Program-made: the position numbers and the translations under genes
Part shown: one piece after another, positions 31,907-48,304 of the stretch
Layout: each line of letters starts with the position of its first letter
How positions within the stretch are numbered: the first letter of the stretch is position 1
Assembly: GCF_001647275.1 (NCBI RefSeq)
Contig: NZ_LRMM01000012.1
Span: forward strand, 1 to 64,000
Direction of reading: 5' to 3'
Origin: Rufibacter ruber
Lineage (GTDB): Bacteria; Bacteroidota; Bacteroidia; Cytophagales; Hymenobacteraceae
Length of the DNA: 64,000 nucleotides
The notes under the pieces: model-generated
What the model saw: only the letters and a program-made list of their open reading frames with translations
Told to the model about the DNA's origin: nothing
Database searches by the model: none

Positions 31907-34900
31907 ATGCTTTTCTTCTTTAGACGGAACAGGACGGTACAGCACGTGCTCAGGTGCGCTTGCCTTACCTTGCTCCTGGCTATGACCCTGCAAATAAGCT
32001 TTTCGGCAGGCCTGAACGCCCAGGGAATTCTGGAGCGGAGAGTCTCGCTCTCAATGGTGAACAAGCCTTTAAAGGAGGTGCTGCAGGCCCTGAACCAGAA
32101 AACCAGCGTTGACTTTGTGTACAGCTCTAAGGTAGATGTACACAAAGTGGTGTCTGTGCAGGCTCAGAACAAAGAACTACGCCAGGTTCTAAAAGACGTG
32201 CTGACCCCTACCCGGCTAGATTATGAGGTGGTGGGAACCAGCATTGTGATCAAAGAAAGCCCTGTGCCCACACCGGTGCCTGTGCTCAAAAAGTCGGCGG
32301 CGGCTGCCCCCTCATTGCCGGTGGTAGTACCCGTGCGGGGGAAAGTGGTAGATGACAAAGGCGAACCGCTGCCGGGGGTAACGGTTCTGGTCAAAGGGAC
32401 CCAGACCGCTACCGTGACAGATGCAAACGGTGCTTTTTCAATTGAAGCCCCCGCCAATGCCTCCCTTATGGTCTCTTACCTGGGTTTCCTGACGCAGGAG
32501 GTCAAAGTGGGCAGCCAGCAGGAGTTGACGGTGAAGCTGGTGCCAGACCCCGTGGCTTTGGGTGAAGTAGTGGTGACGGGGTACACGGTGCAGGAGAAAC
32601 GCGTGGTGACCGGGGCTATTGGCCAGATTAAAAGCCGCGAGATTGCCAACATGCCCATCCAGTCGTTTGATCAGGCCATGCAAGGGCGTCTGGCCGGGGT
32701 GCAGGTGCAGACGGCGTCTGGGGTGCCTGGCGGAAAAGTGAGTATCAACATCAGGGGTATGGGGTCTATTACCGCTGGGAATGAGCCGCTCTACATTGTA
32801 GACGGGGTGCAGATCAACTCAGAAGATGATGCCGGGGGCACCGTGGGCACCAACCCCCTTTCGTTCCTGAACCCCAATGACATTGAGTCAATTGAGGTTT
32901 TGAAAGATGCCGCCGCGGCCTCTATCTACGGAGCCCAGGCGGCCAACGGCGTGGTGCTCATCACCACCAAAAGCGGGGATGAAGGCCCCACCAAGATCAG
33001 CGTGAACATGTACCGGGGATTTGCCTCGCCGCTGCCGCTCATAAAAATGATGGACAGCCAGCAGTACCTGGATGTGCGCATGGAAGCTTACCGCAACCGC
33101 TACCCAGACCGCACAGAGGGGGCCATCAGAACAGAGGTGCTGCAGGAAAGCATGCTCCCCATCAACATGACAGATGCGCAGCTTGCCGCCCTGCCTACGT
33201 ATGACTGGCAGAAGGCAGCCTTCAGGACCGGTGATATTTATGATGTGGAGCTGGCCGCCTCCGGCGGAAACAAGACCACCACCTACCGTCTCTCTGCCTC
33301 TTACAACAGCAGCGAGGGCAACCTGATTGGCATTGACTTCTCCCGCGCCACCGCAAAACTGAGAGTACAGCACAAACCCACGCGCAAGCTCACCATCAGC
33401 ACCAACATCAACCTGAGTAACATAGTGCAGAACGGGACGCAGCAGTCAGCGGGGTCAACGGGCTTTATGTCAGCGCCGCAGTTTTCATCACCTATGATTC
33501 TGCCGTTCATTCCCATCACGCTGGAAGATGGTTCGCCTAACAACCCGTTGGGTGGCTTCCCGGGGGAACTGCGCTACAACCCCATCTACACGGCAGAGGT
33601 AAACTTTATTCAGGGCAAAACCCGGGCGCTGTACAGCAACATCATCCTCAGCTATGACATCACCAAAGACCTCAATTTCAAGTCTACCTGGGGGCTTGAC
33701 TACCGCAACATCAACGCAGAGCAATACCTGGATCCCAGAACCCATGAGGCGTATGCCCGCCGGGGGTATCTTTCCATCCGGAACAGGGAATCCAGCACTG
33801 TCTCTGGTACCCAGGCCCTGACGTACAGCAAACGGTTTGCCGGTGGGCACCGGTTAACGGCCTTGGCTGGGGCAGAGTACCGTGATTACAGCCGGCAGAT
33901 CTCCTTTTCAGCGGGTGAAGGCTTTTCTACCTACCAGTTCAGGCACATGTCAGGGGCGGCCACCATTCTTTCTTCTACCGGCTCCTGGACCGGCTACCGG
34001 CAGTTAGGGTTTTTCTCACAGGCCAACTATGACTATAAGAAGAAGTACATGGCCAGCGCTATTTTGCGCTATGACGGTTCCTCTAAGTTTGGTGCCAACA
34101 ACCGCTTTGGGTTGTTTCCGGCGTTTTCAGCGGGTTGGGACATTGCCGCAGAAGACTTCCTGAAAGACGTGCGCTGGGTAGATCAGTTCAAACTGCGGGT
34201 GGGGTACGGTGAAACCGGGAACAGCGCCATTGACCACTTTGCCTCCAGAGGCCTTTTTACCGGTTCCAGCAGCTATGGCGGGCAGCCGGCCATACAGCCC
34301 AGCTCACTTGAAAACCCAGACCTGCGGTGGGAGCGCAACGCCTCTACCAATTTGGGGGTTGATTTCTCGCTTTTCAGAAAGAGGTTGAGCGGCTCAGTAG
34401 ATGCATTCCACAGAAGAAGCAAAGACCTGTTGCTGGAGCAGCCGGTGCCGTGGTACGGCGGGTATGAGAGCATGTACCGCAACGTGGGCGAAGTGGTGAA
34501 CCGTGGCCTGGAGGTAGAACTGAACGGCGAGGTGCTACGGCTTGGGGGCTTCCAGTGGAATTCTGGTTTCAACATCACGTTCATGGACAATGAGGTGACC
34601 AAGCTGTATGAGGGCCTGAATGGCGAATCTCTGCCCGGTAACCCGTCTGTCCGGATTGGCCACCCGCTCAGAACCAATTTTGTGGCGCAGTACGCGGGGG
34701 TGAATTCGGCCACCGGCCGCCCTATGTGGTGGTCTGGGAACGGGACATTGACCTATAACCCGGGAGCCCAGGGCACCAACAGCTACACCCCGTATGGCCG
34801 CGGCAGCCAGTTAGCCAAATACTTTGGCGGCTTTACCAACACCCTCTCCTTTAAAGGGATTGAAGTTTCTGCCCTGTTCCAGTATGACATGGGGCGGGAG

Positions 34901-35323
34901 TACCTCAATGAGCAGAACAGAACCTGGTACCGCAACGGCCAGGGGGCCAGAAACGGACTGGAGAGAATCTACCTGATGCGCTGGACTGAGCCGGGGCAGG
35001 TAACCCCAGTGCCCAGGGCCATTAACGGCGGGGCAGAGACAGACGGGGCTACGCACATTCTCTCTTCCTCCAGGTTTCTGGAAGACGCCTCCTACATCCG
35101 GTTCAAGCAACTTGCCGCGTCTTATGCCATTCCGGCCAGGTTCCTGAGCAAATTCAAGATCTCCAGCGCGCGGGTGTACGCGCAGGCGGTGAACCTCTAC
35201 ACCTGGACCGCCTGGACCGGTTATGACCCGGAGTTCCTCATTGATGACGAGAATTTCACCTCTAACCAAGGGGTAGTACCCCAAACCCGCAGCTATACGC
35301 TGGGTGTTGAGTTTGGCTTTTAA
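31907..35323 (+). CDS. SusC/RagA-family TonB-linked outer membrane transporter with STN domain
   Basis: A 1138-aa outer-membrane receptor. A signal peptide ends near residue 38. Next are an STN domain (about 45-118) for FecR signalling, a carboxypeptidase-D-like domain (about 143-210; RGKVVDDKGEPLPGVTV), a TonB plug (about 225-345; GRLAGVQVQTASGVPGG and PLYIVDGVQI) and a 22-strand-type barrel. It lies 2 bp before the SusD homologue. It should import a large or rare nutrient; the substrate cannot be told, since no polysaccharide-degrading enzyme accompanies it. Confidence 0.94.
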   Translation: MLFFFRRNRTVQHVLRCACLTLLLAMTLQISFSAGLNAQGILERRVSLSMVNKPLKEVLQALNQKTSVDFVYSSKVDVHKVVSVQAQNKELRQVLKDVLTPTRLDYEVVGTSIVIKESPVPTPVPVLKKSAAAAPSLPVVVPVRGKVVDDKGEPLPGVTVLVKGTQTATVTDANGAFSIEAPANASLMVSYLGFLTQEVKVGSQQELTVKLVPDPVALGEVVVTGYTVQEKRVVTGAIGQIKSREIANMPIQSFDQAMQGRLAGVQVQTASGVPGGKVSINIRGMGSITAGNEPLYIVDGVQINSEDDAGGTVGTNPLSFLNPNDIESIEVLKDAAAASIYGAQAANGVVLITTKSGDEGPTKISVNMYRGFASPLPLIKMMDSQQYLDVRMEAYRNRYPDRTEGAIRTEVLQESMLPINMTDAQLAALPTYDWQKAAFRTGDIYDVELAASGGNKTTTYRLSASYNSSEGNLIGIDFSRATAKLRVQHKPTRKLTISTNINLSNIVQNGTQQSAGSTGFMSAPQFSSPMILPFIPITLEDGSPNNPLGGFPGELRYNPIYTAEVNFIQGKTRALYSNIILSYDITKDLNFKSTWGLDYRNINAEQYLDPRTHEAYARRGYLSIRNRESSTVSGTQALTYSKRFAGGHRLTALAGAEYRDYSRQISFSAGEGFSTYQFRHMSGAATILSSTGSWTGYRQLGFFSQANYDYKKKYMASAILRYDGSSKFGANNRFGLFPAFSAGWDIAAEDFLKDVRWVDQFKLRVGYGETGNSAIDHFASRGLFTGSSSYGGQPAIQPSSLENPDLRWERNASTNLGVDFSLFRKRLSGSVDAFHRRSKDLLLEQPVPWYGGYESMYRNVGEVVNRGLEVELNGEVLRLGGFQWNSGFNITFMDNEVTKLYEGLNGESLPGNPSVRIGHPLRTNFVAQYAGVNSATGRPMWWSGNGTLTYNPGAQGTNSYTPYGRGSQLAKYFGGFTNTLSFKGIEVSALFQYDMGREYLNEQNRTWYRNGQGARNGLERIYLMRWTEPGQVTPVPRAINGGAETDGATHILSSSRFLEDASYIRFKQLAASYAIPARFLSKFKISSARVYAQAVNLYTWTAWTGYDPEFLIDDENFTSNQGVVPQTRSYTLGVEFGF

Positions 35324-35325
35324 GC

Positions 35326-36752
35326 ATGACCACCATGAGAAACAGAATCTTTCCCTATATCCTTTCGGCCAGCCTCATTTTTGTCTCAGGCGCGTGTAAC
35401 GACCTGTTAGACGTGGAGCCCACACATGCCATTGATTCCAGGACCGCCCTCACCAGCATGGAGGCCGTAGAGGCCGCCACCAACGGGGTTTATGCCCGGC
35501 TGCGGGCGGTGCAGCAGTACGGCCGTGACCTGGTGGCGCTGCCAGAGCTGCTGTCAGACAACGCCGTGCACTCGGGGCGGGGCACAACCCTGCAAGCAGA
35601 GGCCAGCAACAGTCCCGGTGCCCATCTGGAAACCTGGGAGACCGGCTATGCCGCCATTAATGAGGCCAACCTGATTCTGGAGGCGCTGGGGCCGCTAAGT
35701 GCGCCGCAGAGTTTTAAGAATTCTGTTGAAGGGCAGGTGCGATTTTTACGGGCGCTTTTCTACCACAACCTGGTAAAGGTGTATGCCTTTGACCCCACCG
35801 CCAATGACCCAACCCGCAACAGAGGCGGGGTACCCCTGGTCAGGAAGGGGGTAATTGCCGTGGGAGACATTGACTATGCCAAAGGCCGTGACGCAGTGTC
35901 TGAGGTGTACCGGTTCATCTATGAAGACCTCACTGCCGCGTACCAGCTATTAGAAGGTACTGATAACGCCAGAGCCCCCCATTTTGCCACCAGGGGAGCC
36001 GTTGCCGCCTTCTTCTCCAGAGTAGCGCTCTACAACGGCGACTATAACAAAGTAATCTCAGAAGCCAACCTTGCGCTCAAGTCTGGGGTGGGGCAACTGC
36101 AGCCCGCCGCCAATGTAGTAGCATCCTGGCGCACAGATGTGCACCCAGAATCTATGTTTGAGGTGGCGGTGAAGCCTACTGAGAACATAGGAACCAATGA
36201 GTCATTGCGGGCCACGTTTACCACCCGGGTGAATGCAGAGGGGAAGGTAGCCGTGAGCTACGGGCATGCGGTGGTAAGTGATGCCCTGTTAAGCGATTAT
36301 GAGGCCGGAGATGTGCGCAAAGAGCTGATCTGGAAAGGCCTGGGCAACAACAGCAGCAAGAATGAAATGACCAAGTTCTTCAGCCGGGGCGGAGTGAAAG
36401 ACCTGGACAACATTCCGGTGATCAGAGTGGCAGAACTGTACCTGAACCGGGCCGAGGCCTATGTGCGCCTTGACCAGGCGCGCTGGCGCTGGAGGACCTG
36501 AATACCATCAGGGTGAACAGGGGGCTGCCGGCGGTTTCCCTTTCCGGGGAGGCCCTGTATGACGAGATCCTGAAACAGCGGCGGGTGGAGCTGGCCTTTG
36601 AGGGACACCGCTGGTTTGATATGAAGCGCCTGGCCCGGACCATGTACAAAGAGACGGGCAATATTCCCCACTCCAGTTACCGCATTCTGGCCCGCATTCC
36701 CTTCAGAGAAAGAAACGCCAATAGCAACATTGCCCAAAACGTGGGCTATTAA
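35326..36752 (+). pseudogene. SusD/RagB-family surface lipoprotein, interrupted by a one-base frameshift
   Basis: A nutrient-binding lipoprotein that caps the SusC barrel. The first frame (35326-36501, 391 aa) has lipobox VSGAC and typical SusD sequence ending in YLNRAEAYVRLDQA, then turns into WRWRT and a stop. The normal C-terminus, RGLPAVSL and RRVELAFEGHRWFDMKRL, continues in another frame to 36752. Restoring one G between 36480 and 36481 (GCGCG to GCGGCG) gives an uninterrupted 475-aa protein reading LDQAALALEDLNTIRVNRG. It is either a recent inactivating mutation, a phase-variable state or an assembly error. Confidence 0.88.
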
Positions 36753-36764: not shown

Positions 36765-37811
36765 GTGAAAAAAAGTATATATCTCTTTCTATTGCTGCTT
36801 TCTGCCTCCTTAACAGGGTGCTTTGAGAAATATGAAGACCGCTACTACTTCAGAGACTTTATGGTGGAGTTTGATGAAGCCGTGACCCGCACCAAAGTTA
36901 GCGGGAAGATTTACCCCCGGGTAGACGGGCTGGACCCGGCCAGCGGGGTGGTGAAATACCGCATCAACCTCATTGGCGGGCAGTTCCCCACTGAGCAAGT
37001 GGTACAGTTCAAAGTGGTGGAAACCGAGAGCACCGCCCGCGAAGGGGTGCACTACCGGTTCCCCAACGGCAATTCCATAGTGATACCGGCCAACAGCAGC
37101 TTTGGGTATCTGGCAGTAGAGGTGCTGCCAGACGGCAGTGGGAACTCCCAACTGGTGGTGGAGCTGGTGGGGAACCAGGAAATCAAACCCATGGACAACT
37201 TCCGGGCCATTGGCATTCCCATCACTTTCCCCAGAACTGACCCAGACCCGGCGCTGGTGGAGAAGATAAATGACATTACCTACTACAAGACCCTGGAGAT
37301 TGGGGCGCACCTGAGCGCCACCCTGGGCAGCCACCTCAACCTGTCTACCGGAGCTATCTATACTAACACCGGGGCAGACGCCAATCCCGCCCAGATTGAC
37401 CTGCTGGTGGCAAATGGGTCCAGCTCCAATATGAACCTTTTGGCACCGTCCAGTTCTGGCGTGAGTGGTTGGGGCTCTATCAACACCCGTATCACCGCCT
37501 GGCCGGTAAGAAACAGCGCCACCCTCATTAAGTTCAGAAACCCCAGCCAGGCAGAGCTGCAAATGTTCAATGACTTGCAAACCGCGGCGCAGATAGAGGC
37601 CGCCTTCATTCAGGCGCAAAACACCGTCAGCAGCAGAACCGGCTATGTGTCAGCAGATGACGGGCCGGGGGATAGGGTACGACAGCTGAAGGCAGGGGAG
37701 CTCCTCTTTGTCAAATCTGGAACAGGCAACCGCTATGCCGTGATCAGGATTGCAGACCTGACCGCCGGAAACGCCGGGGGCATGACCATTCAGTACAAGG
37801 TGACCAACTAA
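36765..37811 (+). CDS. Surface lipoprotein: DUF4843-like N-terminus plus one copy of an unnamed domain
   Basis: A 348-aa exported lipoprotein with a GTG start 12 bp after susD and lipobox LTGC. Residues about 25-165 resemble the DUF4843 family of SusD-linked lipoproteins (for example AREGVHYRF). Residues about 173-348 are one copy of a domain repeated in the next two genes, recognisable by WPVRNSATLIKF and DDGPGDRVRQLKAGELL. It occupies the SusE/SusF position. Function unknown; surface ligand binding is a reasonable guess. Confidence 0.78.
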   Translation: MKKSIYLFLLLLSASLTGCFEKYEDRYYFRDFMVEFDEAVTRTKVSGKIYPRVDGLDPASGVVKYRINLIGGQFPTEQVVQFKVVETESTAREGVHYRFPNGNSIVIPANSSFGYLAVEVLPDGSGNSQLVVELVGNQEIKPMDNFRAIGIPITFPRTDPDPALVEKINDITYYKTLEIGAHLSATLGSHLNLSTGAIYTNTGADANPAQIDLLVANGSSSNMNLLAPSSSGVSGWGSINTRITAWPVRNSATLIKFRNPSQAELQMFNDLQTAAQIEAAFIQAQNTVSSRTGYVSADDGPGDRVRQLKAGELLFVKSGTGNRYAVIRIADLTAGNAGGMTIQYKVTN

Positions 37812-37877
37812 AAAAAGCAGGCAAGGGCAAGCGGTTTCTTAGTCAAAAGGACCGCGCGCCCGCAATCAGAAAATACC

Positions 37878-39668
37878 ATGAAAAAGATTTTTAACCATTT
37901 TTGGTGCACCCTTGCCACCCTGTGCCTGGTGCTGGGGGCTTGTAAAGAGGATGATCTGCCAGAGGTTAACCGGGAGCCCTTCTTTAGCCCCAACGGTGAT
38001 ATTGCCCTGATGCAGGTGAAGCTGGGAGCCCCTGGAAACCCGCTGGAGGGCGGGTATCTTGACCTTGCTACCGGCACAGTATATCAGGAGGCGGCAGTTG
38101 GAGCCCAAGAAGGCAAAGTAGACCTGTTGTACGCCAAGTCCTCCAGCGGTGCTGTCAACCTGATGGTGCCTGCCAGCGCTGGTCTGGAAGGCTGGGATTT
38201 CAGGAACCGGGGCACTCTAATGAAGCTTAGAAGCACCTCTTCTGAGGAACTGGCCATGTTCAATAGCCTTAAAACGTCTGGAGCCCTTGAAACTGCCTAC
38301 ACCACCACCCAGCAAACCCTTGCCACCAGAACCGGTTACGTAGCCGAAGAAGACGGCCCCTCTGACCGCGTGCTGAACGTAGTGGCAGGTGATCTTATCT
38401 TATACAAATCTCTGGAGGAAAACCGCCAGATAATAGCCATTGGGAGGGCGGTGACCGTGAGTACTGGAAACAGCGGGGCGCTGATCATTGATTTTAAAGT
38501 TGCCCAAAACATAAAGGGAGCTACCCCTGCCGTACAGCCAGACCCGGCCACCGACTATAAAAAACTGGAGCTGATGCTGGGCTCGCAAACCAACGCCTAC
38601 TTAGGCAACAACCTAGACTTCTTTACGGGGAAAGCCCTGGTAGATGCAGAAGCCAGTGCCGCGCCAGGCTCAGTAGATCTGCTCCTGGCCAATTCCAGCA
38701 CCTCTGGGTTTAACCTCATGACACCGGGCGGGCCGGGTGTGATCGCCTTCGGCGGAAGTTCAGAAACCAAGGTGCTGGGCTGGGGAACCCGGAACAACGG
38801 TGAACTCATCAAACTCACCAGCCCTACTGCGCAGGAACTGCAACTCCTGACAGACATACAGACGGCTAGCCAGATTGAAACCACTTACAATGCCTTGAAA
38901 GCCACGGCTGCCAGCAGGCCCAACTACAACGCCACCAATGACGGAGCTTCAGACCGGATCAGGAGCATTGAGCCTGGTGACCTCATTCTGTACAAGTCGC
39001 TTACGCCGGGCCGCAAGATTTACGCGGTGGGCCGGGCGGTGAACCTGGCCAGGGGCAACGCGGGTTCCATGGTGCTGCAGATGAAGGTGTCTGCTGAGCT
39101 GGTGAACGTGCCGCCGCCGCCAGTGAGTGACATCACCACCTATCAGGTAACCTGGGGTGGGCAGAGCAACACCAGCCTTGGTTATTTCCTGGACCTGAAA
39201 ACCGGAAATGTCTATAACAATACCACCTCACCGGCTAACGCCGATAAAATTGACCTGTTCAACGCCTTCGGGGCTACCACCGGGGTCAATTTCTACACGC
39301 CAGGCGTAGCACAAACAGCCTTTGGCGCCATTGAAACCCTTATCAAAACCTGGCCAACCCGCAACAACGGCAACATGGTCAAGCTCCGGAACACCACGCC
39401 AGAAGAGCGCGAAGCCTTTGACGCCCTGGAGTTCAACCAGGAGATTGAAGCCGCCTATGACCAGGCGCAGGCCAGCGTGACCAGCCGTGCCGGGTACGTT
39501 GCCCTGGAAGACGGACCCACCAACACGCGTCTGCGCAAACTGGTGGCCAATGACATCGTCTACTTCCGGTCGGCGAGCCGCAATTTCACCGCCGCCATTC
39601 TGGTGCAGGACGCCGAGCAGAGCTCTACGGGCACCATTACCCTAGTTGTAAAAGTCAAAAAAGATTAA
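37878..39668 (+). CDS. Lipoprotein with three tandem copies of an unnamed domain
   Basis: A 596-aa exported protein with lipobox LGAC near residue 23. Three domain copies span about 42-210, 226-405 and 421-596. Each begins with a LGxQxNxxLGxxLDLxTG-like stretch, then has an IDLL strand, a basic-aromatic block (FRNRGTLMKL, WGTRNNGELIKL, WPTRNNGNMVKL), a helix ending in IExAYxxA, a Y...DGxSDR segment and a GDLILYKS strand. I cannot assign a known family. Short proline-rich linkers (VPPPPVSD) separate the copies. It is probably co-expressed with susCD. Confidence 0.8.
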   Translation: MKKIFNHFWCTLATLCLVLGACKEDDLPEVNREPFFSPNGDIALMQVKLGAPGNPLEGGYLDLATGTVYQEAAVGAQEGKVDLLYAKSSSGAVNLMVPASAGLEGWDFRNRGTLMKLRSTSSEELAMFNSLKTSGALETAYTTTQQTLATRTGYVAEEDGPSDRVLNVVAGDLILYKSLEENRQIIAIGRAVTVSTGNSGALIIDFKVAQNIKGATPAVQPDPATDYKKLELMLGSQTNAYLGNNLDFFTGKALVDAEASAAPGSVDLLLANSSTSGFNLMTPGGPGVIAFGGSSETKVLGWGTRNNGELIKLTSPTAQELQLLTDIQTASQIETTYNALKATAASRPNYNATNDGASDRIRSIEPGDLILYKSLTPGRKIYAVGRAVNLARGNAGSMVLQMKVSAELVNVPPPPVSDITTYQVTWGGQSNTSLGYFLDLKTGNVYNNTTSPANADKIDLFNAFGATTGVNFYTPGVAQTAFGAIETLIKTWPTRNNGNMVKLRNTTPEEREAFDALEFNQEIEAAYDQAQASVTSRAGYVALEDGPTNTRLRKLVANDIVYFRSASRNFTAAILVQDAEQSSTGTITLVVKVKKD

Positions 39669-39704
39669 CCTAATCCATCCCAACAAACAGAAAAGCATAC
39701 CCAT

Positions 39705-40364
39705 ATGAAGAGAATTGCCTTAGTACTAGGATTTTGCGGCGCACTCCTGCTGGCGCCCGGGGTGACGGTCACTTCTTCCTTCGCCCAAAAGAAAGGGGCC
39801 GCAGACAAGGGGGAACCCGTGAAGACCCTGCAGGTGACCATGGGTGCGCAGAGCAACAAGTCAACCGGCGGGTTTGTAGAGGCGGCCACCGGCACTACGT
39901 ATTCAGAGAACGAAGCCAGCGGGAATACCGGCAAAATTGATTTCATCTACCTGCACGGGAAAGACTCAGGCGCCAATTTTGTGACCCCAGCCAGCGCGGG
40001 GCTGAGCGCGTTCAAAAAACTGTCTGAGCGGGTGGCTACCTGGGAGGCCAGGAACGAAGGCACCCTTATCAAATTACCGGCATCAGAGGAGAGCCAGCAG
40101 CTGTTTGAAAGCGTGAAAACCACCGCAGACCTGCAGGAAGCCTTCAAGAAAGCGGGCAAACTGGTGACCAGTGCGGCAGGCTACAAAGCCAAAGACTTTG
40201 GGCCGGGTGACCGCATCAGGTTTCTGGCCGCCGGAGACGTGGTGCTGTTCAAATCTAAGAACAATGTGCTGGCTGTTCTGCAGGTAAAAGAAGTGGGAGA
40301 CACCACCACCGGCACCCTCACCGCCGAGGTGAAAACCAGTGGCGGGAAAGTAGCCGGGAAATAA
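39705..40364 (+). CDS. Exported protein with one copy of the unnamed domain
   Basis: A 219-aa protein with a type I-like signal peptide (cleavage near SSFAQ, about residue 27) and no lipobox, unlike its two neighbours. Residues about 38-212 form the fifth copy of the domain: VTMGAQSNKSTGGF, KIDFIYL, WEARNEGTLIKL and DFGPGDRIRFLAAGDVVLFKS. It may be the soluble, single-domain form. It lies 36 bp downstream of the triple-domain lipoprotein gene. Confidence 0.78.
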   Translation: MKRIALVLGFCGALLLAPGVTVTSSFAQKKGAADKGEPVKTLQVTMGAQSNKSTGGFVEAATGTTYSENEASGNTGKIDFIYLHGKDSGANFVTPASAGLSAFKKLSERVATWEARNEGTLIKLPASEESQQLFESVKTTADLQEAFKKAGKLVTSAAGYKAKDFGPGDRIRFLAAGDVVLFKSKNNVLAVLQVKEVGDTTTGTLTAEVKTSGGKVAGK

Positions 40365-40424
40365 CCTGGCCGGCTTCGGGCTGCAAAGCATGGCCAAGCC
40401 TTCCCTGCCAGGCCAGCGTTGCCG

Positions 40425-40462
40425 TTTCCGTTTTGGGCCTGTTTCGAAACAGCAAACGGAAA
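40425..40462. repeat. Degenerate intergenic palindrome
   Basis: TTTCCGTTTTGGGCCTGTTTCG, then AAACAGCAAACGGAAA: the outer arms pair but the GGGCC complement is lost. The 309-bp gap 40365-40673 holds this and one intact copy; I see no gene. Confidence 0.55.
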
Positions 40463-40587
40463 GGCGTACAAAAGCTGCTTCGGCTTTAGCCGAGGAGGAT
40501 TCCAAGACGGACGCCAGCCAGTTAAACGCAAGTACCGTGCGCTATCAAGTTGCTTGCAGAAAGACTAACTAAAAAGATATCTGAAGT

Positions 40588-40632
40588 TTCTGTTTTGGGG
40601 CTGTTTTCAGAAAAGCAGCCCCAAAACAGAAA
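40588..40632. repeat. Intergenic palindrome, GGGGCTG variant
   Basis: TTTCTGTTTTGGGGCTG, loop TTTTCAGAAAAG, CAGCCCCAAAACAGAAA. It lies about 40 bp before the amidohydrolase gene. The last coordinate may be off by one. Confidence 0.88.
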
Positions 40633-40673
40633 ACCATGTACCGCTTACCTTACTCACCACCTCAAGAATTGAT

Positions 40674-41645
40674 ATGAAACCAAACCATCTGCCTGGCAGA
40701 CGTACTTATTGGGTAGCGGCTTTCAGCCTGGTGCTGTGGAGCCTGGGCTGCTCCAAGAACATTACCCCCGAGCCCAAGGCGGTTACCTCCAGCTGGGTAG
40801 CCAACCAATCTTACTATGACGGACAGAAATGGTCTGAGATGGTGGTGGGCACCATGCCGCTGGTCATTAGCGTGCCGCACGGCGGAACGGTGGAGCCGAG
40901 TAACATTCCGGACCGTACCTGCCCAGACGCCACCACGGTGCGCGACGCCAACACCATTGAACTGGCACGCGCCATTGAGCAGGAGTTTGTGAAGAACTAC
41001 GGGGTACGGCCGTATCTGGTCATTTCGCACATTGCCCGCAAGAAAATTGACCAGAACCGCGAGATGGAACCCGGCACCTGCGGCAACGCGCTTATGAAGG
41101 AAACCTGGCAGGCGTACCATAATTTTGTTGACACCGCCCTGGCCCTGGCCACTAGAAACCACGGCACAGCACTCTTTATTGACCTGCACGGGCACGGGCA
41201 CAGTGTTCAACGGCTGGAGCTGGGCTACAACCTCACCGCAAGTGAGGTGCAGGATGTAAGCCTGAACAGGAACCTGGCCACGTTGGCCGCCAAATCCAGC
41301 GTGAACAACCTGCTGCAGGCCAATAACCAGATCACCTTCCGGAACATGATGGTGGGCGACTATGGCTTCGGGACGCTGATCAGGAATGAAGGTTTTGCGG
41401 CCGTGCCGAGCAAGCAAGACCCGTACCCGCTGTCAAACCAGCCCTATTTTTCCGGCGGCTACAACACCCGAATGTACACCTCGGCCAATTTCCCCAAGGT
41501 GCACGGCTGGCAGATTGAGTGCAACATGACCGGCGTGCGCGACACCAACGGTCGGCCCCTTTTTGCGGCGGCGTTTGCCAAGGCCATCATGCAGTACTAC
41601 GCCAACAATACGTCGCTGCGGCCCCCGTTCACCCCTCTGAGATAG
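40674..41645 (+). CDS. Exported N-formylglutamate amidohydrolase-like lipoprotein
   Basis: A 323-aa protein with a lipoprotein signal (lipobox SLGC near residue 23). The mature domain shows N-formylglutamate amidohydrolase patterns: LVISVPHGG, DANTIELARAIEQEF and the metal-binding LFIDLHGHGH. Cytoplasmic family members release glutamate from N-formylglutamate in histidine breakdown. This one is exported and has no hut genes beside it, so it may act on other N-acyl or N-formyl amino acids outside the inner membrane. It is first of five genes with a common D-amino-acid/glutamate theme. Confidence 0.8.
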   Translation: MKPNHLPGRRTYWVAAFSLVLWSLGCSKNITPEPKAVTSSWVANQSYYDGQKWSEMVVGTMPLVISVPHGGTVEPSNIPDRTCPDATTVRDANTIELARAIEQEFVKNYGVRPYLVISHIARKKIDQNREMEPGTCGNALMKETWQAYHNFVDTALALATRNHGTALFIDLHGHGHSVQRLELGYNLTASEVQDVSLNRNLATLAAKSSVNNLLQANNQITFRNMMVGDYGFGTLIRNEGFAAVPSKQDPYPLSNQPYFSGGYNTRMYTSANFPKVHGWQIECNMTGVRDTNGRPLFAAAFAKAIMQYYANNTSLRPPFTPLR

Positions 41646-41724
41646 TTTTTCGGCATAGCCGCGCCAAACCCTGCAGAGGGGTGGGCGGCTGTGACATGTT
41701 GAGTACCCCAACCAAACCAAAAAA

Positions 41725-43281
41725 ATGAAACGCACCCGCTCGCTCCCGGCATATTTATTGGCCGCTGCCGTTGCTTTTTCCTGCCACAAAACGGCTCCCA
41801 AAGAAGCTGCCGCCCCCGCCCAGGTAACTGAAGCAACAGATCTGGCCATTGAGAAAGCCATTCTGGAAGACCAGCAAAACTTCTACTACACCAACTTCAA
41901 GGAATATCCGCAGAACGACCCGTCACTGCCCATTGGCGTGTTTGACTCGGGCACCGGCGGGCTCACCATCTTAGACGCGCTGGTGAACTATGACCAGTTC
42001 AACAACCAGAGCAAATCGGCCGGGGCCGATAAGGAACCTGATTTCTCACGAGAGAAATTCATCTATCTCGCCGACCAGGCCAATATGCCGTACGGCAACT
42101 ACTACAGCGCCAATAAATCTGATCTGCTGGTGGAGCACATCATCAAAGACGCCCAGTTTTTGATGGCCAGCAAGTACTACACCCGCAGCGGCGAGAAGGC
42201 GTTCCAGAAAGACAAGCAGCCCGTGAAAGCCATTGTGGTGGCCTGCAACACTGCCACCGCCTACGGCAAAGAGCACATTGAGAGCTTCATCCAAAAAACT
42301 GGCATTGATCTGAAAGTGATTGGTGTAATAGACGCTGGCGCGAAGGGCGCGCTGGAAGCCTTCAAAAAAGACGAGAGCGGCACCGTGGGCGTGTTTGCTA
42401 CCGTGGGCACCATTGCCTCTAAAGGCTACGAGAAAACGTTTCTGGCGCTTAAAGAAAAGATGGGCTACACCGGCACTATTCAGGTGGTGAACCAAGGCGG
42501 CCAAGGCTTGGCCGAAGCCATTGACGAGGAGCCTGATTTCATTCAACGCGATGCCAAAGCCCCCCGCCAGAACTACCGTGGCCCGTCTTTGGCCAACGCC
42601 GACTACCAGATTGACAAGACCTTGCTAGATGTCTACAACTTCAACTTTGATCACCAGAAAATGCTGTGTGACAGCAAAAACTCTGATGATTGCCAGGTCT
42701 TGCAGCTGAACGCCCCAGAAAACTACGTGCGGTATCACTTGGTTTCTATGATGGAAAAACTCCGGAAGACGCCTAACGCCCAGCCGCTCAAAGCCGTGAT
42801 TCTGGGTTGCACACACTACCCGTACATGACCAAAGACATCAACCAGGTGCTGGGCGAACTCTACAACTACAAAAAGAACGGCCAATACGTGTACCGGCAC
42901 CTCATGGTCCAGAACGTGCGCCTCATTGACCCCGCCATTAACGTGGCCGCCGAACTGCACGCCTATCTCAAGGAGAAAAACCTGTTCAACCAGCAGGCCA
43001 AACAACTGAGCAGCGAGTTCTATATTAGCGTGCCCAACCTCAACAACCCGTCCATCAAAACCGACAGCGCCGGGCGCTTTACCTATGACTACAAGTATGG
43101 CCGCAACGTGGGCAAGATTCAGGAGTACGTGGCGGTGGTGCCGTTCAGCAAGAAGAACATTCCGGTAGAAACCCTCAACCGCTTCAAGGCCTCCATTCCG
43201 CAGACGTATAAACTGATTCAGAACTTCCACCAGGCCAACCCTAAAACGGCCACGCTCACGGCAGAAGAGAAAATCAACTAA
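41725..43281 (+). CDS. Exported glutamate/aspartate-racemase-like lipoprotein
   Basis: A 518-aa protein with a lipoprotein signal (AFSC near residue 20). The body is MurI-like: GVFDSGTGGLTIL near 72, VACNTATAYG with C174, and LGCTHYPYM with C362, so both catalytic cysteines of the two-base racemase are present. It is almost twice the usual MurI length because of insertions, including about 300-345, and a C-terminal extension. MurI is normally cytoplasmic; here the signal places it outside the inner membrane. The next gene encodes a glutamate-type transporter. Substrate and activity are untested. Confidence 0.8.
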   Translation: MKRTRSLPAYLLAAAVAFSCHKTAPKEAAAPAQVTEATDLAIEKAILEDQQNFYYTNFKEYPQNDPSLPIGVFDSGTGGLTILDALVNYDQFNNQSKSAGADKEPDFSREKFIYLADQANMPYGNYYSANKSDLLVEHIIKDAQFLMASKYYTRSGEKAFQKDKQPVKAIVVACNTATAYGKEHIESFIQKTGIDLKVIGVIDAGAKGALEAFKKDESGTVGVFATVGTIASKGYEKTFLALKEKMGYTGTIQVVNQGGQGLAEAIDEEPDFIQRDAKAPRQNYRGPSLANADYQIDKTLLDVYNFNFDHQKMLCDSKNSDDCQVLQLNAPENYVRYHLVSMMEKLRKTPNAQPLKAVILGCTHYPYMTKDINQVLGELYNYKKNGQYVYRHLMVQNVRLIDPAINVAAELHAYLKEKNLFNQQAKQLSSEFYISVPNLNNPSIKTDSAGRFTYDYKYGRNVGKIQEYVAVVPFSKKNIPVETLNRFKASIPQTYKLIQNFHQANPKTATLTAEEKIN

Positions 43282-43334
43282 CCCCGGGCCTCTTCTCTTT
43301 TCCTTTCTCCGGAACGGAAGAGGGAAGAGGCCTT

Positions 43335-43373
43335 CTGTTTTCGGCCTGTTTTGGCCAAAATAGCGAAAACGCA
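43335..43373. repeat. Intergenic palindrome, TTTTCGGCC/AGCGAAAAC subtype
   Basis: CTGTTTTCGGCCTGTTTTGG, then CCAAAATAGCGAAAACGCA. The inner stem is TTTTGGCCAAAA and the CGGCC partner is shortened to GCG. The same subtype occurs at 44970 and 48687. Confidence 0.7.
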
Positions 43374-43432
43374 AACCCAACACTACCCAACCACCCAAAC
43401 CAACGAAGCAAATTATTTACCCTTTCCCAGTT

Positions 43433-44875
43433 ATGAAGTTGAAGTTCTCCACCCTTGCCACGGTTCTGTCCCTCACGGCCGCGGCGTTGCTCACGGTCAT
43501 TGACGCCTACGTCACGCCGCTGTCTGAACCTGTTTTGTTTGCGTTCCGGTGGCTGGCCATTGGCGGTCTGGTGCTGTTCGGGTTCCAGCGCAAAACCTTG
43601 ACCACCTGGATTCTGGTGGCCTTGGTGATGGGTGCCGAGATTGGGCATGACTTCCCCGCGTTCGGGATAAACCTGCAGGTGTTGAGCAAGATTTTCCTTA
43701 AGATGATTAAGACCATTGTAGGGCCGCTTCTCTTCGGGACGCTGGTGTACGGCATTGCCGGGCACTCCAACATCAAGCAGGTGGGCCGCATGGGCTGGAA
43801 GTCGCTGCTGTATTTTGAGGTGGTGACCACGCTGGCCCTGTTCATCGGCTTGGCCGCTATCAACCTCTCCAAAGCCGGTGAGGGCGTGAAACCGCCCGCC
43901 GCGCTGCACGAGGAACTGCCGGTGGTAAAACCCCAGACCACCCAGGAAATCATTCTGCACGTGTTCCCAGAGAACTTCGTGAAGTCTATGGCCGACGGCG
44001 AAGTGCTGCAGATTGTGGTGTTCAGCGTGCTGTTCGGCATTGCCCTCATTCTGGTGCGCGAAGACAAGCGCAAGCCCGTGGTGCAGTTCGCTGAGAGTCT
44101 GTCTGAAGTCATGTTCAAGTTCACCAACATTGTCATGTACTTCGCACCGTTTGGCGTGGGCGCGGCCATGGCCTACACCGTGGGGCACATGGGGCTGGGC
44201 GTGCTGGTGAACCTGTTTCAGTTGCTGGCTACGCTGTACGTGGCCCTGATTGTATTTATGGCGGTGGTGCTGTTGCCTATTGCCCTCCTCATTGGCTTGA
44301 ACATCAAGAAATTCATACAAGCCATTGCCGAACCCGTGTCCATTGCCTTTGCCACCACAAGTTCAGAGGCCGCCCTGCCACGCGCCATGGAGGCCGTGGA
44401 AAAACTGGGCGTGCCGCGCAAGATTGTGGCCTTTGTGATGCCCACCGGCTACAGCTTCAACCTGGACGGCACCACGCTGTACCTGGCGCTGGCCTCCATC
44501 TTTGTGGCGCAGGCCGCCGGTATTGAGATGACCTTGGGCCACCAACTCATGATTGTGTTCACGCTTATGCTCACCAGCAAAGGCGTGGCGGGCGTACCGC
44601 GCGCCTCTTTGGTGATTCTGCTGGGCACGGCCGCTTCGTTCGGTTTGCCGGTGTGGCCTATCTTCATCATTCTGGGCATTGACGAACTCATGGACATGGC
44701 TCGCACCTCGGTGAACGTGATTGGCAACTGCCTGGCCGCCGTGGTCATTGCCAAGTGGGAAGGCGAATTTTACCCAGACGGACTTCCGGCGGTACCGGTG
44801 GTAGAAGGCGTGCCGTTAGCTCCTGTGGAGGAACGGTTGGCAGTAGCGCCAATAGCGAAAGAGCCGGTGCAGTAA
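43433..44875 (+). CDS. Dicarboxylate/amino acid:cation symporter (glutamate/aspartate type)
   Basis: A 480-aa inner-membrane transporter of the DAACS (GltP/GltPh) family with about 8 helices and two re-entrant hairpins. HP1 reads TTSSEAALPRAME near 303. The TM7 motif is NLDGTT near 343 (family NMDGT), HP2 is KGVAGVPRASLVIL, and TM8 has the DELMDMARTSVNVIGN substrate-site pattern. The arginine and aspartate in TM8 fit acidic amino acids. It sits between the exported racemase-like protein and the D-aminoacylases, consistent with importing the freed glutamate or aspartate. Confidence 0.92.
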   Translation: MKLKFSTLATVLSLTAAALLTVIDAYVTPLSEPVLFAFRWLAIGGLVLFGFQRKTLTTWILVALVMGAEIGHDFPAFGINLQVLSKIFLKMIKTIVGPLLFGTLVYGIAGHSNIKQVGRMGWKSLLYFEVVTTLALFIGLAAINLSKAGEGVKPPAALHEELPVVKPQTTQEIILHVFPENFVKSMADGEVLQIVVFSVLFGIALILVREDKRKPVVQFAESLSEVMFKFTNIVMYFAPFGVGAAMAYTVGHMGLGVLVNLFQLLATLYVALIVFMAVVLLPIALLIGLNIKKFIQAIAEPVSIAFATTSSEAALPRAMEAVEKLGVPRKIVAFVMPTGYSFNLDGTTLYLALASIFVAQAAGIEMTLGHQLMIVFTLMLTSKGVAGVPRASLVILLGTAASFGLPVWPIFIILGIDELMDMARTSVNVIGNCLAAVVIAKWEGEFYPDGLPAVPVVEGVPLAPVEERLAVAPIAKEPVQ

Positions 44876-44886
44876 AACGGTAAACC

Positions 44887-45048
44887 ATGGCGCAAGCGTC
44901 CGCTTGTGTCCACAGGTTCAAGGCTTACAAAATAGCATTCGGGCAAGCCCGATGTCAAAATAAAAATTTCTGTTTTCGGCCTGTTTTAGCCAAAACAGCG
45001 AAAACGCAAAATTATCAGTCACACGGCACAAGCGGACGCTTGCGCCAT
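44887..45048. repeat. Compound repeat: inverted CGCAAGCGTCCGCTTGTG arms around a palindrome
   Basis: ATGGCGCAAGCGTCCGCTTG at the left end and its inverted copy at 45023-45048 enclose a palindrome at 44970-45007 (CTGTTTTCGGCC subtype). The architecture matches 11338-11441. The right end stops 2 bp before the start codon of the next gene, so it forms part of that gene's leader. Confidence 0.75.
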
Positions 45049-45050
45049 AA

Positions 45051-46694
45051 ATGAAAGACAAACCGTTTCAAAGTATACCAACCTTGCATACCATTTTCAA
45101 CAAACAGTTTCTGCTCACCGCCTGCTTGGCGCTGCTCACGACAGCGGTAAGTTACGGGCAACGTGCGGCGGGTAAAACGCTGGACTTGCTCATCACCGGG
45201 GCCATGGTGTTTGACGGCAGCGGCAAAGATTCGGCGCAGCTGGACGTGGGCATTCTGGGCGATAGAATTGCCTTTGTGGGCAACGCGCAGCAGAACCAAA
45301 TCAAAGCCAAGAAGACCATCAACGCTCAAGGGCTGTACCTGGCGCCCGGTTTTATTGACCCGCACACCCACACAGACAAATACCTGAACAGCAAAGACGC
45401 CGCCGAACGGGCTACCCTTCCGTTTCTGGCGCAGGGCGTGACTACGGTGTTTGCCGGCAGCGACGGGTTTGGCGGGTCAGACATTGCCAAACAGCTTTCG
45501 GCCTGGGACCGCAACGGCATTGGCCTCAACGCCGCGCTGTTTGTGGGCCACGGCGGCGTGCGCAAAGAAGTGCTGGGCAGCAAAAACGTGCAACCCACGC
45601 CCGCCCAGCTGGAAGAGATGCGCCAACGGGTAGACCGCGCCATGAAAGAAGGGGCCATTGGCCTTTCCGGCGGATTATTCTACGCACCCGCCAGCTACGC
45701 CAAAACCCAGGAAGTCACCGAACTGGCCAAAGTGGCCGCCCAATACCAGGGCGTGTATGACACCCACATGCGTAGCGAAGGCACCGGCGTGCTGGACGCC
45801 ATTCAGGAAACCCTGGACATTGGCACCGGATCAGGTATTCCAGTACATATTTCCCACATTAAAGTGAGCGGCGAGACCAACTGGGGCCGCAGCCTGGAGG
45901 TGATTAGAATGGTGGAGAACGCCCAGCGCAAAGGCCAGAAAGTGACCGCCAACCATTACCCGTACGTGGCCTCGTCCACCAGCCTCAAGGCCACCCTCAT
46001 GCCCCGTTGGGCCGAAGACGGCGGCAATAAAGAGATGCTGAAACGCCTGGAAGACCCCAAAACGCTGGAAAGAATCAAAAAGAGCCTGGCCTCTAAACTG
46101 GATAGTACCGGCCGTGCCGAACGCATTACCCTGGCCACCCCCAAGAACCCCGAACTGAACGGCAAGTCTATTCTCAAAATCTCGCAGGAATGGGGCGTCA
46201 AGCCCGAGGACGCGGTCATCAGAATCCTCAAGGAGAATCCGGCTACCAGTGTGATTTCCTTCAGCATGTCTGAAGAAGACGTGGTGCGGTTCATGCAGCA
46301 GCCCTGGGTCATGACTGGGTCAGACGGTGGCGGGGCGCACCCGCGCACATACGGCACCTTCGCCCGCAAAATGGGCCTGTACGCGCTGGAGAAGAAAGTC
46401 ATGCCTCTGAGCCAAGCCCTTCACAGCGCCACCGGCCTCACCGCCACCACCTTCCACATCAAAGACCGCGGGTTCATCAAAGAAGGCTTCTTTGCAGATT
46501 TGGTGGTGTTTGACCCCGCCTGGTTCAGAGACAACGCCACCTTTGACCAGTCTACCCAACTGGCCAGCGGCGTGCACTACGTGCTGGTGAACGGCACCGT
46601 CAGCATCAGCGAAGGCAAATACACGGGCGCGCTGGCCGGGAAAGCCCTTCGGCACGCGCCCGCTAACGCTCCATCTCCAGGAAAAGAGAAATAG
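45051..46694 (+). CDS. Exported N-acyl-D-amino-acid deacylase 1
   Basis: A 547-aa amidohydrolase-superfamily enzyme with a signal peptide (cleavage near VSYGQ, about residue 37). Metal and active-site motifs are GFIDPHTHTD near 98, YDTHMRSE, HISHIK and TGSDGGGAHPR. It hydrolyses N-acyl-D-amino acids (D-aminoacylase family). Export places the reaction in the periplasm. It is followed 2 bp later by a paralogue, so both come from one transcript. The exact acyl and side-chain preferences are unknown. Confidence 0.88.
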   Translation: MKDKPFQSIPTLHTIFNKQFLLTACLALLTTAVSYGQRAAGKTLDLLITGAMVFDGSGKDSAQLDVGILGDRIAFVGNAQQNQIKAKKTINAQGLYLAPGFIDPHTHTDKYLNSKDAAERATLPFLAQGVTTVFAGSDGFGGSDIAKQLSAWDRNGIGLNAALFVGHGGVRKEVLGSKNVQPTPAQLEEMRQRVDRAMKEGAIGLSGGLFYAPASYAKTQEVTELAKVAAQYQGVYDTHMRSEGTGVLDAIQETLDIGTGSGIPVHISHIKVSGETNWGRSLEVIRMVENAQRKGQKVTANHYPYVASSTSLKATLMPRWAEDGGNKEMLKRLEDPKTLERIKKSLASKLDSTGRAERITLATPKNPELNGKSILKISQEWGVKPEDAVIRILKENPATSVISFSMSEEDVVRFMQQPWVMTGSDGGGAHPRTYGTFARKMGLYALEKKVMPLSQALHSATGLTATTFHIKDRGFIKEGFFADLVVFDPAWFRDNATFDQSTQLASGVHYVLVNGTVSISEGKYTGALAGKALRHAPANAPSPGKEK

Positions 46695-46696
46695 AC

Positions 46697-48304
46697 ATGA
46701 CGTATTCTGTTTGCATATCCCCTTTTATAAAAGTCCCGGCCAGCGGCACCTGTTTGGTGCTGCTGGCGGGCTTGCTGTGTTTGTTCCAGACTTCGGCGTA
46801 CAGCCAGAACGCCAAAAAAGTAGACACGTTCATCAAAGGCGCGTGGGTGTTTGACGGCTCGGGCAAAGACTCTATGCGCCTGGACGTGGGCATTACCGGC
46901 GACCGCATCACCTATCTGGAGCCCGCCGGCAAGAAAGCGCCCAAAGCCAAGAAAACCATTGACGCCAACGGCTATTACCTGGCCCCCGGCTTCATTGACC
47001 CGCACACGCACGTGGCCGCAGATTTGTCTAACCCAGAGCGCAAGAGCAATTTGGCGTACCTCATGCAGGGCGTAACCACCGTGTTTGAGGGCAATGACGG
47101 CTCCGGCCCTATGCCCATCGGCACCACGCTGGCCCAATGGGAGCAGAACGGCATTGGCACCAACGCAGGTCTGTTCGTGGGCCACGGCTCGGTGCGCAAA
47201 GAGGTGCTGGGCGAGAAAGACGTGCAGCCCACGCCCTCTCAGTTGGAGAAAATGAAGAAACTGGTGGCTCAGGCCATGGAACAAGGCGCGTATGGCATTT
47301 CTACCGGCCTGTTTTACGCCCCCGGCAGTTTCGCACAGCAGAGCGAGGTGGTAGAACTGTCAAAAGTAGCTGCCGCTTACGGCGGAATCTATGATACCCA
47401 CCTGCGCGACGAAAGTACTTACAACATCGGGTTGATGAACTCTATCAAAGAGACCCTGGAGATTGGCGAGGCCGCGGGCATTCCGGTGCACATTTCGCAC
47501 ATCAAAGCCTTAGGTGCCGATGTCTGGGGCAAGAGCCCCGAGGTAATCCAGATGATTGAGGCCGCCCAAAAAAGAGGCCTGCGCGTGACCGCGAACCAGT
47601 ACCCATATTTAGCGTCGCGCACCAACCTGATTGCCGCCGTGGTGCCCCGCTGGGCCGAAGACGGCGGCGTGAAAGCCATGTTCGCCCGCTTTGATGATGC
47701 TACTTTAGCAGATAGCCTGCGCAACGGCATCAGAGACAACATTCGCCGCCGCGGCGGCCCGGCTTCTTTGGTACTGTCCACCGACAATGCCACCCTCAAT
47801 GGAAAATCTCTGGAGAAAGTAGCGCAGGAATGGCAGCTGGATCCGGTAGAGGCGGTCTTCAAAGTGCTGCGCACCGACCAGAAAGTACGGGTGGTGTCCT
47901 TCAACATGACCGAAGAAGATTTGCTTCGGTTCATGAAGCAGCCCTGGGTCATGACCGGTTCAGACGGTACGCCCGGCCACCCCAGAAAATACGGTTCGTT
48001 TACCCGCAAGCTCAAAGAGTACGCTATTGACCACCACCATATTTCCATGGCCAACGCCATTCACAGTTCCACCGGCCTCACCGCCCAAACCCTGGGCATT
48101 CAGGAGCGCGGGTTGGTGAAGAAAGGCTACTACGCAGACCTGATTCTGTTCCAGCCACAAAACCTGAAAGACTTCGCCACTTATGAGGAACCTTCAAACC
48201 TGGCCAGTGGCATGGAATACGTGTTTGTGAATGGCGTAGCCGCCGTGCAAAATGGAAAGGCTACTGGCGCCCTGGCAGGCAAAGCGCTGAAGCATAAAAA
48301 GTAA
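46697..48304 (+). CDS. Exported N-acyl-D-amino-acid deacylase 2
   Basis: A 535-aa paralogue of the preceding enzyme with a signal peptide ending near SAYSQ (about 35). It keeps GFIDPHTHVA, GIYDTHLRDE, HISHIKALG and TGSDGTPGHPR. The clearest differences are HTHTD changed to HTHVA and GGGAHP changed to GTPGHP, so substrate range may have diverged after duplication. It is the last gene of the 40.7-48.3 kb series and is followed by a perfect palindrome. Confidence 0.88.
   Translation: MTYSVCISPFIKVPASGTCLVLLAGLLCLFQTSAYSQNAKKVDTFIKGAWVFDGSGKDSMRLDVGITGDRITYLEPAGKKAPKAKKTIDANGYYLAPGFIDPHTHVAADLSNPERKSNLAYLMQGVTTVFEGNDGSGPMPIGTTLAQWEQNGIGTNAGLFVGHGSVRKEVLGEKDVQPTPSQLEKMKKLVAQAMEQGAYGISTGLFYAPGSFAQQSEVVELSKVAAAYGGIYDTHLRDESTYNIGLMNSIKETLEIGEAAGIPVHISHIKALGADVWGKSPEVIQMIEAAQKRGLRVTANQYPYLASRTNLIAAVVPRWAEDGGVKAMFARFDDATLADSLRNGIRDNIRRRGGPASLVLSTDNATLNGKSLEKVAQEWQLDPVEAVFKVLRTDQKVRVVSFNMTEEDLLRFMKQPWVMTGSDGTPGHPRKYGSFTRKLKEYAIDHHHISMANAIHSSTGLTAQTLGIQERGLVKKGYYADLILFQPQNLKDFATYEEPSNLASGMEYVFVNGVAAVQNGKATGALAGKALKHKK

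Follow-up and report, generated by a model that had tools for sequence, protein, structure and literature searches.

The DNA analyzed here (the window) comprises 64,000 nt of the Rufibacter ruber contig NZ_LRMM01000012.1, and all coordinates refer to the whole window. It contains a locus that encodes an exported racemase homologue of the MurI family together with amidohydrolases and a predicted amino acid carrier. An initial annotation described five consecutive plus-strand genes at 40674-48304 as a candidate periplasmic salvage pathway for N-acyl and D-amino acids, especially glutamate and aspartate. The five open reading frames (ORFs) were confirmed at these coordinates, with intergenic gaps of 79, 151, 175, and 2 bases, and each family assignment was upheld by a Pfam match above the gathering score: PF05013 FGase (40 bits, cut-off 28.9), PF01177 Asp_Glu_race (37.9 bits, cut-off 31), PF00375 SDF (392.2 bits, cut-off 27.9), and PF07969 Amidohydro_3 for the last two genes (82.5 and 88.3 bits, cut-off 29.7). 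The export signals ascribed to four of the five products also hold, as judged by eye, by hydropathy in a 12-residue N-terminal window, and, for the racemase, with a crude lipobox regular expression. By eye, the signals are of the lipoprotein type in the amidohydrolase (..SLGC) and the racemase (..AFSC), and of type I in both D-aminoacylases; the N-terminal hydropathy values of these four proteins are 1.94, 2.04, 2.15, and 3.02, respectively, against 0.33 in the genome's ordinary MurI.

The proposed start of the locus at 40674 did not stand, as related genes extend upstream to 29822. Since a sigma factor, a FecR-like protein, SusC, SusD, and three lipoprotein-like proteins are encoded there on the same strand, the locus was taken as 29822-48304, with the following genes:

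29822..30400, + strand: extracytoplasmic function (ECF)-type RNA polymerase sigma-70 factor, the probable locus regulator (TIGR02985, 127.5 bits, cut-off 126.4)
30827..31816, + strand: FecR-like anti-sigma factor (PRK09774 FecR, 69.7 bits, under the cut-off of 385)
31907..35323, + strand: SusC/RagA TonB-linked outer-membrane transporter (TIGR04056, 844 bits, cut-off 368.25)
35326..36752, + strand: SusD lipoprotein with an interrupted frame (PF14322, 71.3 bits, over the cut-off; sequence read directly)
36765..37811, + strand: lipoprotein with a DUF4843-like N-terminus (PF16132, 26.5 bits, under the cut-off of 34.5) and a C-terminal DUF4466-like repeat domain
37878..39668, + strand: lipoprotein with three copies of the DUF4466-like repeat domain (three aligned segments)
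39705..40364, + strand: exported protein with a single DUF4466-like repeat domain (AlphaFold predicted local distance difference test score, pLDDT, 87.2; Foldseek match 4ei0)
40674..41645, + strand: lipoprotein of the N-formylglutamate amidohydrolase (FGase) family (PF05013 over the cut-off; HutG equivalog missed)
41725..43281, + strand: exported MurI-family lipoprotein with about 250 extra residues (PF01177, invariant motifs, MurI fold, lipobox)
43433..44875, + strand: DAACS (sodium:dicarboxylate symporter family) carrier with an amino-acid-type DMART motif (PF00375, 392.2 bits; motif comparison)
45051..46694, + strand: exported D-aminoacylase-family amidohydrolase 1 (PF07969; closest solved structure, D-aminoacylase 1m7j, 279 bits)
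46697..48304, + strand: exported D-aminoacylase-family amidohydrolase 2 (PF07969; closest structures, 9g5m at 234 bits and D-aminoacylase at 228 bits)

Relatives of the racemase were collected in one scan of species genomes, which gave at least 590 pattern matches, 498 of them confirmed. All counts out of 80 given below refer to the best 80 of at least 498 confirmed racemase loci (labelled L0xx), which are not independent of one another. Their hosts belong to Flavobacteriia, Sphingobacteriia, Cytophagia, Saprospiria, and Bacteroidia, with a single Aminicenantes bin in addition. The racemase alignment has 72 rows, formed by the window and 71 of the 80 loci, nine being dropped owing to stops, fusions, or odd frames.

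At 518 residues, the window racemase is about twice as long as an ordinary MurI (~265 residues). The motifs DSG, PYG, CNT, and GCTH, including both catalytic cysteines, are present in 72/72 rows, where D74 S75, P122 Y123 G124, C174 N175 T176, and C362 T363 H364 are invariant; ACNTA and GCTH(Y/F)P are found in all 80 loci. In MurI, these motifs have catalytic and substrate roles. The AlphaFold model (pLDDT 90.9) retrieved glutamate racemases as its first 45 Foldseek matches in the PDB (target-normalized template modeling score 0.62-0.75), followed by two aspartate racemases. The score against the glutamate racemase equivalog TIGR00067 is 90.3 bits, below the cut-off of 146.65. The N-terminus is hydrophobic in 76 of the 80 racemases, and 58 have a lipobox-like motif; among the four proteins lacking the hydrophobic segment, the called ORF starts inside the protein in L027, L043, and L064, and L083 is marginal. 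Two further cysteines in the extra sequence, Cys315 and Cys323, are both retained in 71 of the 72 rows and are both replaced by Tyr in the remaining one. Because they are kept or lost together, we read them as a probable disulfide, which is consistent with an extracytoplasmic protein. The genome encodes elsewhere (C6:334-1047) an ordinary 274-residue MurI that exceeds its cut-off and has no such signal; hence the locus racemase is not needed for cell-wall synthesis. The signal sequences, the cysteine pair, and the separate MurI all place it apart from the cytoplasmic enzymes of peptidoglycan-precursor synthesis. The suggestion that racemization occurs outside the cytoplasm is thus borne out as regards export, by the hydrophobic N-termini and the cysteine pair that is kept or lost together in 72/72 rows, whereas the activity is predicted.

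Compared with the cofactor-independent, two-cysteine enzymes MurI and RacE, the locus racemase has the same fold, catalytic cysteine pair, and DSG/PYG/CNT/GCTH motifs, but it is exported (mostly as a lipoprotein), is longer, has an additional conserved cysteine pair in the insertion, scores below TIGR00067, and lies in a nutrient locus in addition to an ordinary MurI. BsrV/BsrF, Pseudomonas putida Alr, and RacK are pyridoxal phosphate (PLP) enzymes of the alanine racemase type that act on Lys, Arg, and other amino acids, whereas the locus racemase belongs to the PLP-independent MurI family. What it shares with them is the predicted periplasmic location and, with P. putida Alr, which serves amino acid catabolism, a proposed role of this kind (as described in parts of PMC6034422 and PMC12502697). 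No exported MurI-type racemase was reported in the open-licence literature searched. In the portion of PMC5169069 considered, signal-peptide prediction was limited to transferred eukaryotic genes and yielded a single signal, in a D-amino acid oxidase. Judged from its sequence features, the protein appears to represent a new exported two-cysteine racemase family with an insertion and a cysteine pair, tied to a D-aminoacylase subfamily in SusCD loci.

The strongest neighbourhood signal is the pairing of the racemase with D-aminoacylase-family genes. With a run defined as contiguous same-strand genes around the racemase separated by gaps of <500 bases, such a gene is present in the run in 47/80 loci and adjoins the racemase in 44/80, the adjacency spanning 26 of 37 taxon labels. 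When all called genes of the 80 loci are considered, D-aminoacylase homologues occupy 46 of the 158 slots adjoining the racemase and 6 of the 914 more distant slots, so that chance is unlikely to be the cause of the pairing. Eighteen control stretches around ordinary MurI genes (17 MurI-sized hits from near genomes, two of which overlap, and the genome's own MurI; ~1-2 kb on each side) contained no match to D-aminoacylase, FGase, DAACS, or SusC at E 1e-4.

Other partner families were named from Pfam scans of one or two representatives per cluster, with DAACS, FGase, D-aminoacylase, and SusC partners additionally assigned by phmmer comparison with the window proteins. These partners are SusC (40/80 loci, 37 of them with SusD), M14 peptidase (24), beta-lactamase-fold hydrolase (22), gamma-glutamyltranspeptidase (19), DAACS (14), a secreted protein of no Pfam family (13), a 2,4-diaminopentanoate dehydrogenase-like protein (9), FGase (8), penicillin amidase (6), and S9 peptidase (5). 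Gene order varies among the loci. All four families represented by the window's five genes (racemase, D-aminoacylase, FGase, and DAACS) occur in one run in L079 (Sphingobacterium sp. SGG-5) and L045 (Sinomicrobium). The L079 run consists of two repeat-domain proteins, two FGases, a D-aminoacylase, a third FGase, gamma-glutamyltranspeptidase, a D-aminoacylase, the racemase, three beta-lactamase-fold hydrolases, and DAACS; the L045 run resembles it. In L033 and L037, a single protein combines the racemase with a beta-lactamase-fold domain at the C-terminus (the racemase part exceeds the PF01177 cut-off in L037 and is below it in L033), and in L035 and L045 the repeat domain of the 39705 type is joined by fusion both to FGase and to beta-lactamase-fold domains. 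These fusions support a functional link between the parts.

The secreted protein (~430 aa; L088, L047, L044, and ten other loci), in the one scanned representative of which only an fn3 domain was found, directly follows the racemase in 12/80 loci. The 2,4-diaminopentanoate dehydrogenase-like gene (L062:6161-7156 and eight other loci; NF040740, 234.8 bits, below the cut-off of 400) hints at a further step of amino acid degradation. In the Gelidibacter racemase locus L022, glucosamine-6-phosphate isomerase is fused to a PIG-L deacetylase domain (L022:6675-8603), and a major facilitator superfamily carrier and a Gfo/Idh-like gene, both named from sequence reading, are also present; this amino-sugar deaminase/PIG-L fusion fits peptidoglycan debris but was seen in Gelidibacter only.

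Both D-aminoacylases of the window fall below the cut-off of PRK09061 (NF006560; 206.6 and 203.2, cut-off 340), a family without any over-cut-off match in 14 control genomes. The second, at 46697..48304, is of the type most often adjoining the racemase. All 51 D-aminoacylases in the runs have a hydrophobic N-terminal segment, and the five metal ligands (the HxH pair, two further His, and Asp) are kept in 53/53 aligned rows. In the same 53 rows the metal-site cysteine (Cys96 of the Alcaligenes faecalis D-aminoacylase) is Asp; this defines a distinct subfamily, the substrate of which may differ. The locus enzymes therefore share the Amidohydro_3 fold family and the five ligands with D-aminoacylase and N-acyl-D-glutamate deacylase (PRK09061, 1m7j, and 3gip) but differ from them in the Cys-to-Asp replacement, in export, and in scoring below the PRK09061 cut-off. 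The oxidised-chitin (ong) cluster of Pseudoalteromonas likewise combines TonB-dependent import with a D-aminoacylase-family enzyme, but OngB acts in the cytoplasm after import, whereas the window enzymes have signal peptides and are accompanied by a racemase (PMC9537276, in the part consulted). A third, more distant D-aminoacylase-family gene is present elsewhere in the genome (C2:33815-35275); relatives with 35-38% identity to the 46697-48304 protein occur in four of 15 sister genomes.

Import of glutamate or aspartate by the DAACS carrier was part of the initial annotation; its family, a GltP-type motif, and the presence of such carriers in 14/80 loci support this, and the substrate is a prediction. 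NCBIfam scores place DctA first (387.7 of the required 513), and the GltP score is 345.6 of 638, both under the cut-off. The motif in transmembrane segment 8, DMARTSVN, corresponds to DMARTALN of Escherichia coli GltP and to the amino-acid-type pattern D..RT..N, not to SEARALTN of DctA (S..RA..N). The Asp and Thr of this motif bind amino acid substrates in GltPh. A C4-dicarboxylate carrier, as suggested by the top DctA score, was judged less likely given the GltP-type motif. As for the first of the five genes, annotated as N-formylglutamate amidohydrolase, its membership in PF05013 stands, but its score of 33.8 against the HutG equivalog TIGR02017 is far below the cut-off of 278.75, and the family is a minor partner among the loci. 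Turnover of N-formylglutamate (the Hut pathway) as the main function was rejected on these two grounds.

The head of the locus, which the initial annotation missed, has the composition of a SusCD nutrient locus, with SusC, the sigma factor, and the SusD domain over their cut-offs and the FecR-like protein under its own. SusCD polysaccharide utilization loci likewise begin with SusC, SusD, an ECF sigma factor, and a FecR-like anti-sigma factor; their counterpart here is followed instead by amidohydrolases, a racemase, and a carrier among the downstream genes scanned, and no glycoside hydrolase match was found among the locus genes scanned with Pfam. L025 and L029 have a gene of ~207 aa from a sigma-like cluster in the corresponding place ahead of SusC, and FecR-like homologues precede SusC in many racemase loci. 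Near 36480 the SusD coding sequence shifts frame: the ORF as called stops at 36501, and the conserved C-terminal portion is read in a different frame up to 36752, which may reflect either an assembly error or a genuine lesion. The three proteins that follow contain one, three, and one copies of the repeat domain, respectively. Neither a PDB sequence match nor any Pfam match other than sub-threshold DUF4466 was obtained for them. The 39705 protein has a weak-to-moderate best Foldseek match to 4ei0 (DUF4466, E 3.9e-5) and a sub-threshold match to PF14725 (E 0.018). The N-terminal part of the 36765 protein is homologous to small lipoproteins in L025, L026, L029, L072, and L085, and homologues of the 37878 protein occur in L045, L078, and L079.

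Several copies of a palindromic intergenic repeat sit between genes of the racemase locus. Its 18-base core, CTGTTTTCGGCCTGTTTT, occurs in the window at 43335, 44970, and 48687 on the plus strand and at 3235 on the minus strand, and in the genome as 105 forward and 107 reverse exact copies; the pattern read backwards gave 0. Elsewhere in the window (14901-21148), genes for SpoIIM-like, DUF4350, MoxR-type AAA ATPase, and DUF58 proteins lie in a row, a recurrent set.

The distribution of the racemase is wide and patchy. No full-length match outside its own genome was found in the 97 nearest genomes; hits in 16 other genomes of the 98 are weak matches to MurI-sized frames. A profile search (E 1e-60) detected it in 8/395 phylum-sampled genomes including its own (7/171 genera); a single-protein class search (E 1e-10) gave 2/395 including its own and is therefore an underestimate. 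Plasmid records yielded partial matches alone, and those with an annotation bore the names murI or racE. A tree of the 72 racemases places the window as sister to a Pedobacter-labelled bin (support 98/85) instead of grouping it with other Cytophagia, and the class labels require 10 changes, against a possible minimum of 4; this pattern hints at transfer without proving it. In eight of 15 sister genomes whose regions were fetched, genes from 48854 onward are syntenic and no locus genes lie in the ~15 kb upstream; the left edge of the locus relative to the sister genomes was not located. Co-occurrence of the families in related genomes, proposed initially as a check, is thus seen at the phylum level, in the 44/80 adjacency, but does not extend to the genus or family of the organism: the 15 and 44 genomes examined there, respectively, lack the racemase.

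The gene content, the export signals, the racemase motifs and fold, and the conserved co-localization are observed. Taken together, they point to a sigma/anti-sigma-regulated SusC/SusD locus that probably serves the use of D-glutamate in bound form, or of a similar acidic D-amino acid, racemized before import. Under this proposal, SusCD would take small molecules that are acylated or peptide-linked through the outer membrane, and the exported D-aminoacylase-family enzymes and the amidohydrolase would free D-glutamate in the periplasm, a role that gamma-glutamyltranspeptidase, M14 carboxypeptidase, or beta-lactamase-fold hydrolases would take in other species. The exported MurI-type lipoprotein would then convert D-glutamate into L-glutamate for import by the DAACS carrier. 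We infer the reactions, the direction of racemization, the origin of the substrate, and a location in the periplasm rather than on the cell surface. There would be a reason to racemize before import, since D-glutamate is a poor substrate of ordinary glutamate carriers. According to part of PMC12502697, D-glutamate auxotrophs of E. coli and Vibrio fischeri need an altered gltS to use external D-glutamate, a barrier that a periplasmic racemase would bypass. The more frequent partners suggest that the D-glutamate is bound in peptide linkage or N-acylated; gamma-glutamyltranspeptidase and the M14 peptidase, which has a weak match to the murein tripeptide amidase MpaA (21.2 bits, far under the cut-off), suggest D-glutamate in gamma linkage, of the kind found in murein peptides or poly-gamma-glutamate. 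As far as the part of PMC11044484 considered goes, peptidoglycan is argued there to be a nutrient for deep-sea microbes with active glutamate racemase genes, and no extracytoplasmic placement is given.

A number of observations weigh against this proposal. The scores of all five genes fall short of the more stringent NCBIfam thresholds that define exact function, so homology does not fix their exact substrates. The Asp at the metal site of the D-aminoacylases departs from the canonical Cys, and OngB, a solved relative in the family, acts on N-acetylglucosaminate and has little or no activity on N-acetyl-D-glutamate (part of PMC9537276). FGase accompanies the racemase in only 8/80 loci, the locus contains no identified amidase or muramidase, which leaves a peptidoglycan source indirect, and the SusD frame is interrupted. 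In 22 of the 80 loci no hydrolase or carrier partner is present in the run; these include L021, the closest relative of the window among the best 80, and nine Sphingobacterium loci, several of which lie beside housekeeping genes such as that for a DNA polymerase III subunit (read from sequence). The sampling of the 80 most similar, non-independent loci also weighs on this side. The salvage interpretation as a whole is partly supported: its genes, export, and phylum-level co-occurrence hold, with the role of FGase reduced, the SusCD importer added, and the activities predicted.

Three other explanations were considered. The locus might process another D-configured or N-acylated compound, such as N-acyl sugar acids, bile-salt-like conjugates, or acylated D-amino acids other than glutamate, with the racemase acting on the product; we regard this as rather unlikely. 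The D-aminoacylase family is broad, as illustrated by the deacetylation of N-acetylglucosaminate by OngB and by a secreted Amidohydro_3 enzyme that hydrolyses taurine-conjugated bile salts (part of PMC13081902), and both the Cys-to-Asp replacement and the penicillin-amidase-type acylase in 6/80 loci would suit such substrates. The glutamate racemase motifs in 72/72 rows, the glutamate racemase fold, the glutamate/aspartate-like carrier, and the gamma-glutamyltranspeptidase in 19/80 loci nevertheless favor glutamate. An assignment of the locus to a loose collection of nutrient genes, in which the racemase homologue is a binding protein or an inactive enzyme and no pathway exists, would agree with its patchiness and absence from sister genomes, the variable gene order, and the racemase often being alone; it is improbable, however, in view of the invariance of both catalytic cysteines (72/72), the adjacency of 46/158 against 6/914 slots, and the racemase/beta-lactamase-fold and repeat domain/FGase fusions.

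The reaction could also run in the opposite direction, the exported racemase producing D-amino acids outside the cytoplasm for peptidoglycan editing or as signals, in the manner of PLP-dependent periplasmic racemases. Racemases are reversible, which counts for this explanation, as do the 22/80 loci that lack a catabolic partner in the run and the discussion, in part of PMC12502697, of periplasmic racemases with such roles (BsrF and RacK). Nonetheless, the main partners, namely hydrolases, D-aminoacylase-family enzymes, and importers, form a catabolic set under SusCD and sigma/anti-sigma genes, and deletion of the periplasmic Alr of P. putida affected amino acid catabolism, not peptidoglycan structure (part of PMC6034422), so that we consider this direction improbable.

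Beyond the window, the chances appear about even that the racemase loci represent an undescribed, phylum-wide but patchy system of Bacteroidota, in which SusCD-fed release of bound D-glutamate is coupled to an exported, PLP-independent MurI-type racemase acting before import; the sources of bound D-glutamate may be murein peptides, poly-gamma-glutamate, or N-acyl-D-glutamate. D-Glutamate is a universal component of peptidoglycan and accounts for much of the organic nitrogen that is recycled slowly. If true, the proposal would give a new place and role to the MurI family, whose members are regarded as drug targets that act in cell-wall synthesis exclusively in the cytoplasm, and would provide a testable prediction for several hundred genomes, in which copies of this racemase would probably be annotated as an additional murI.

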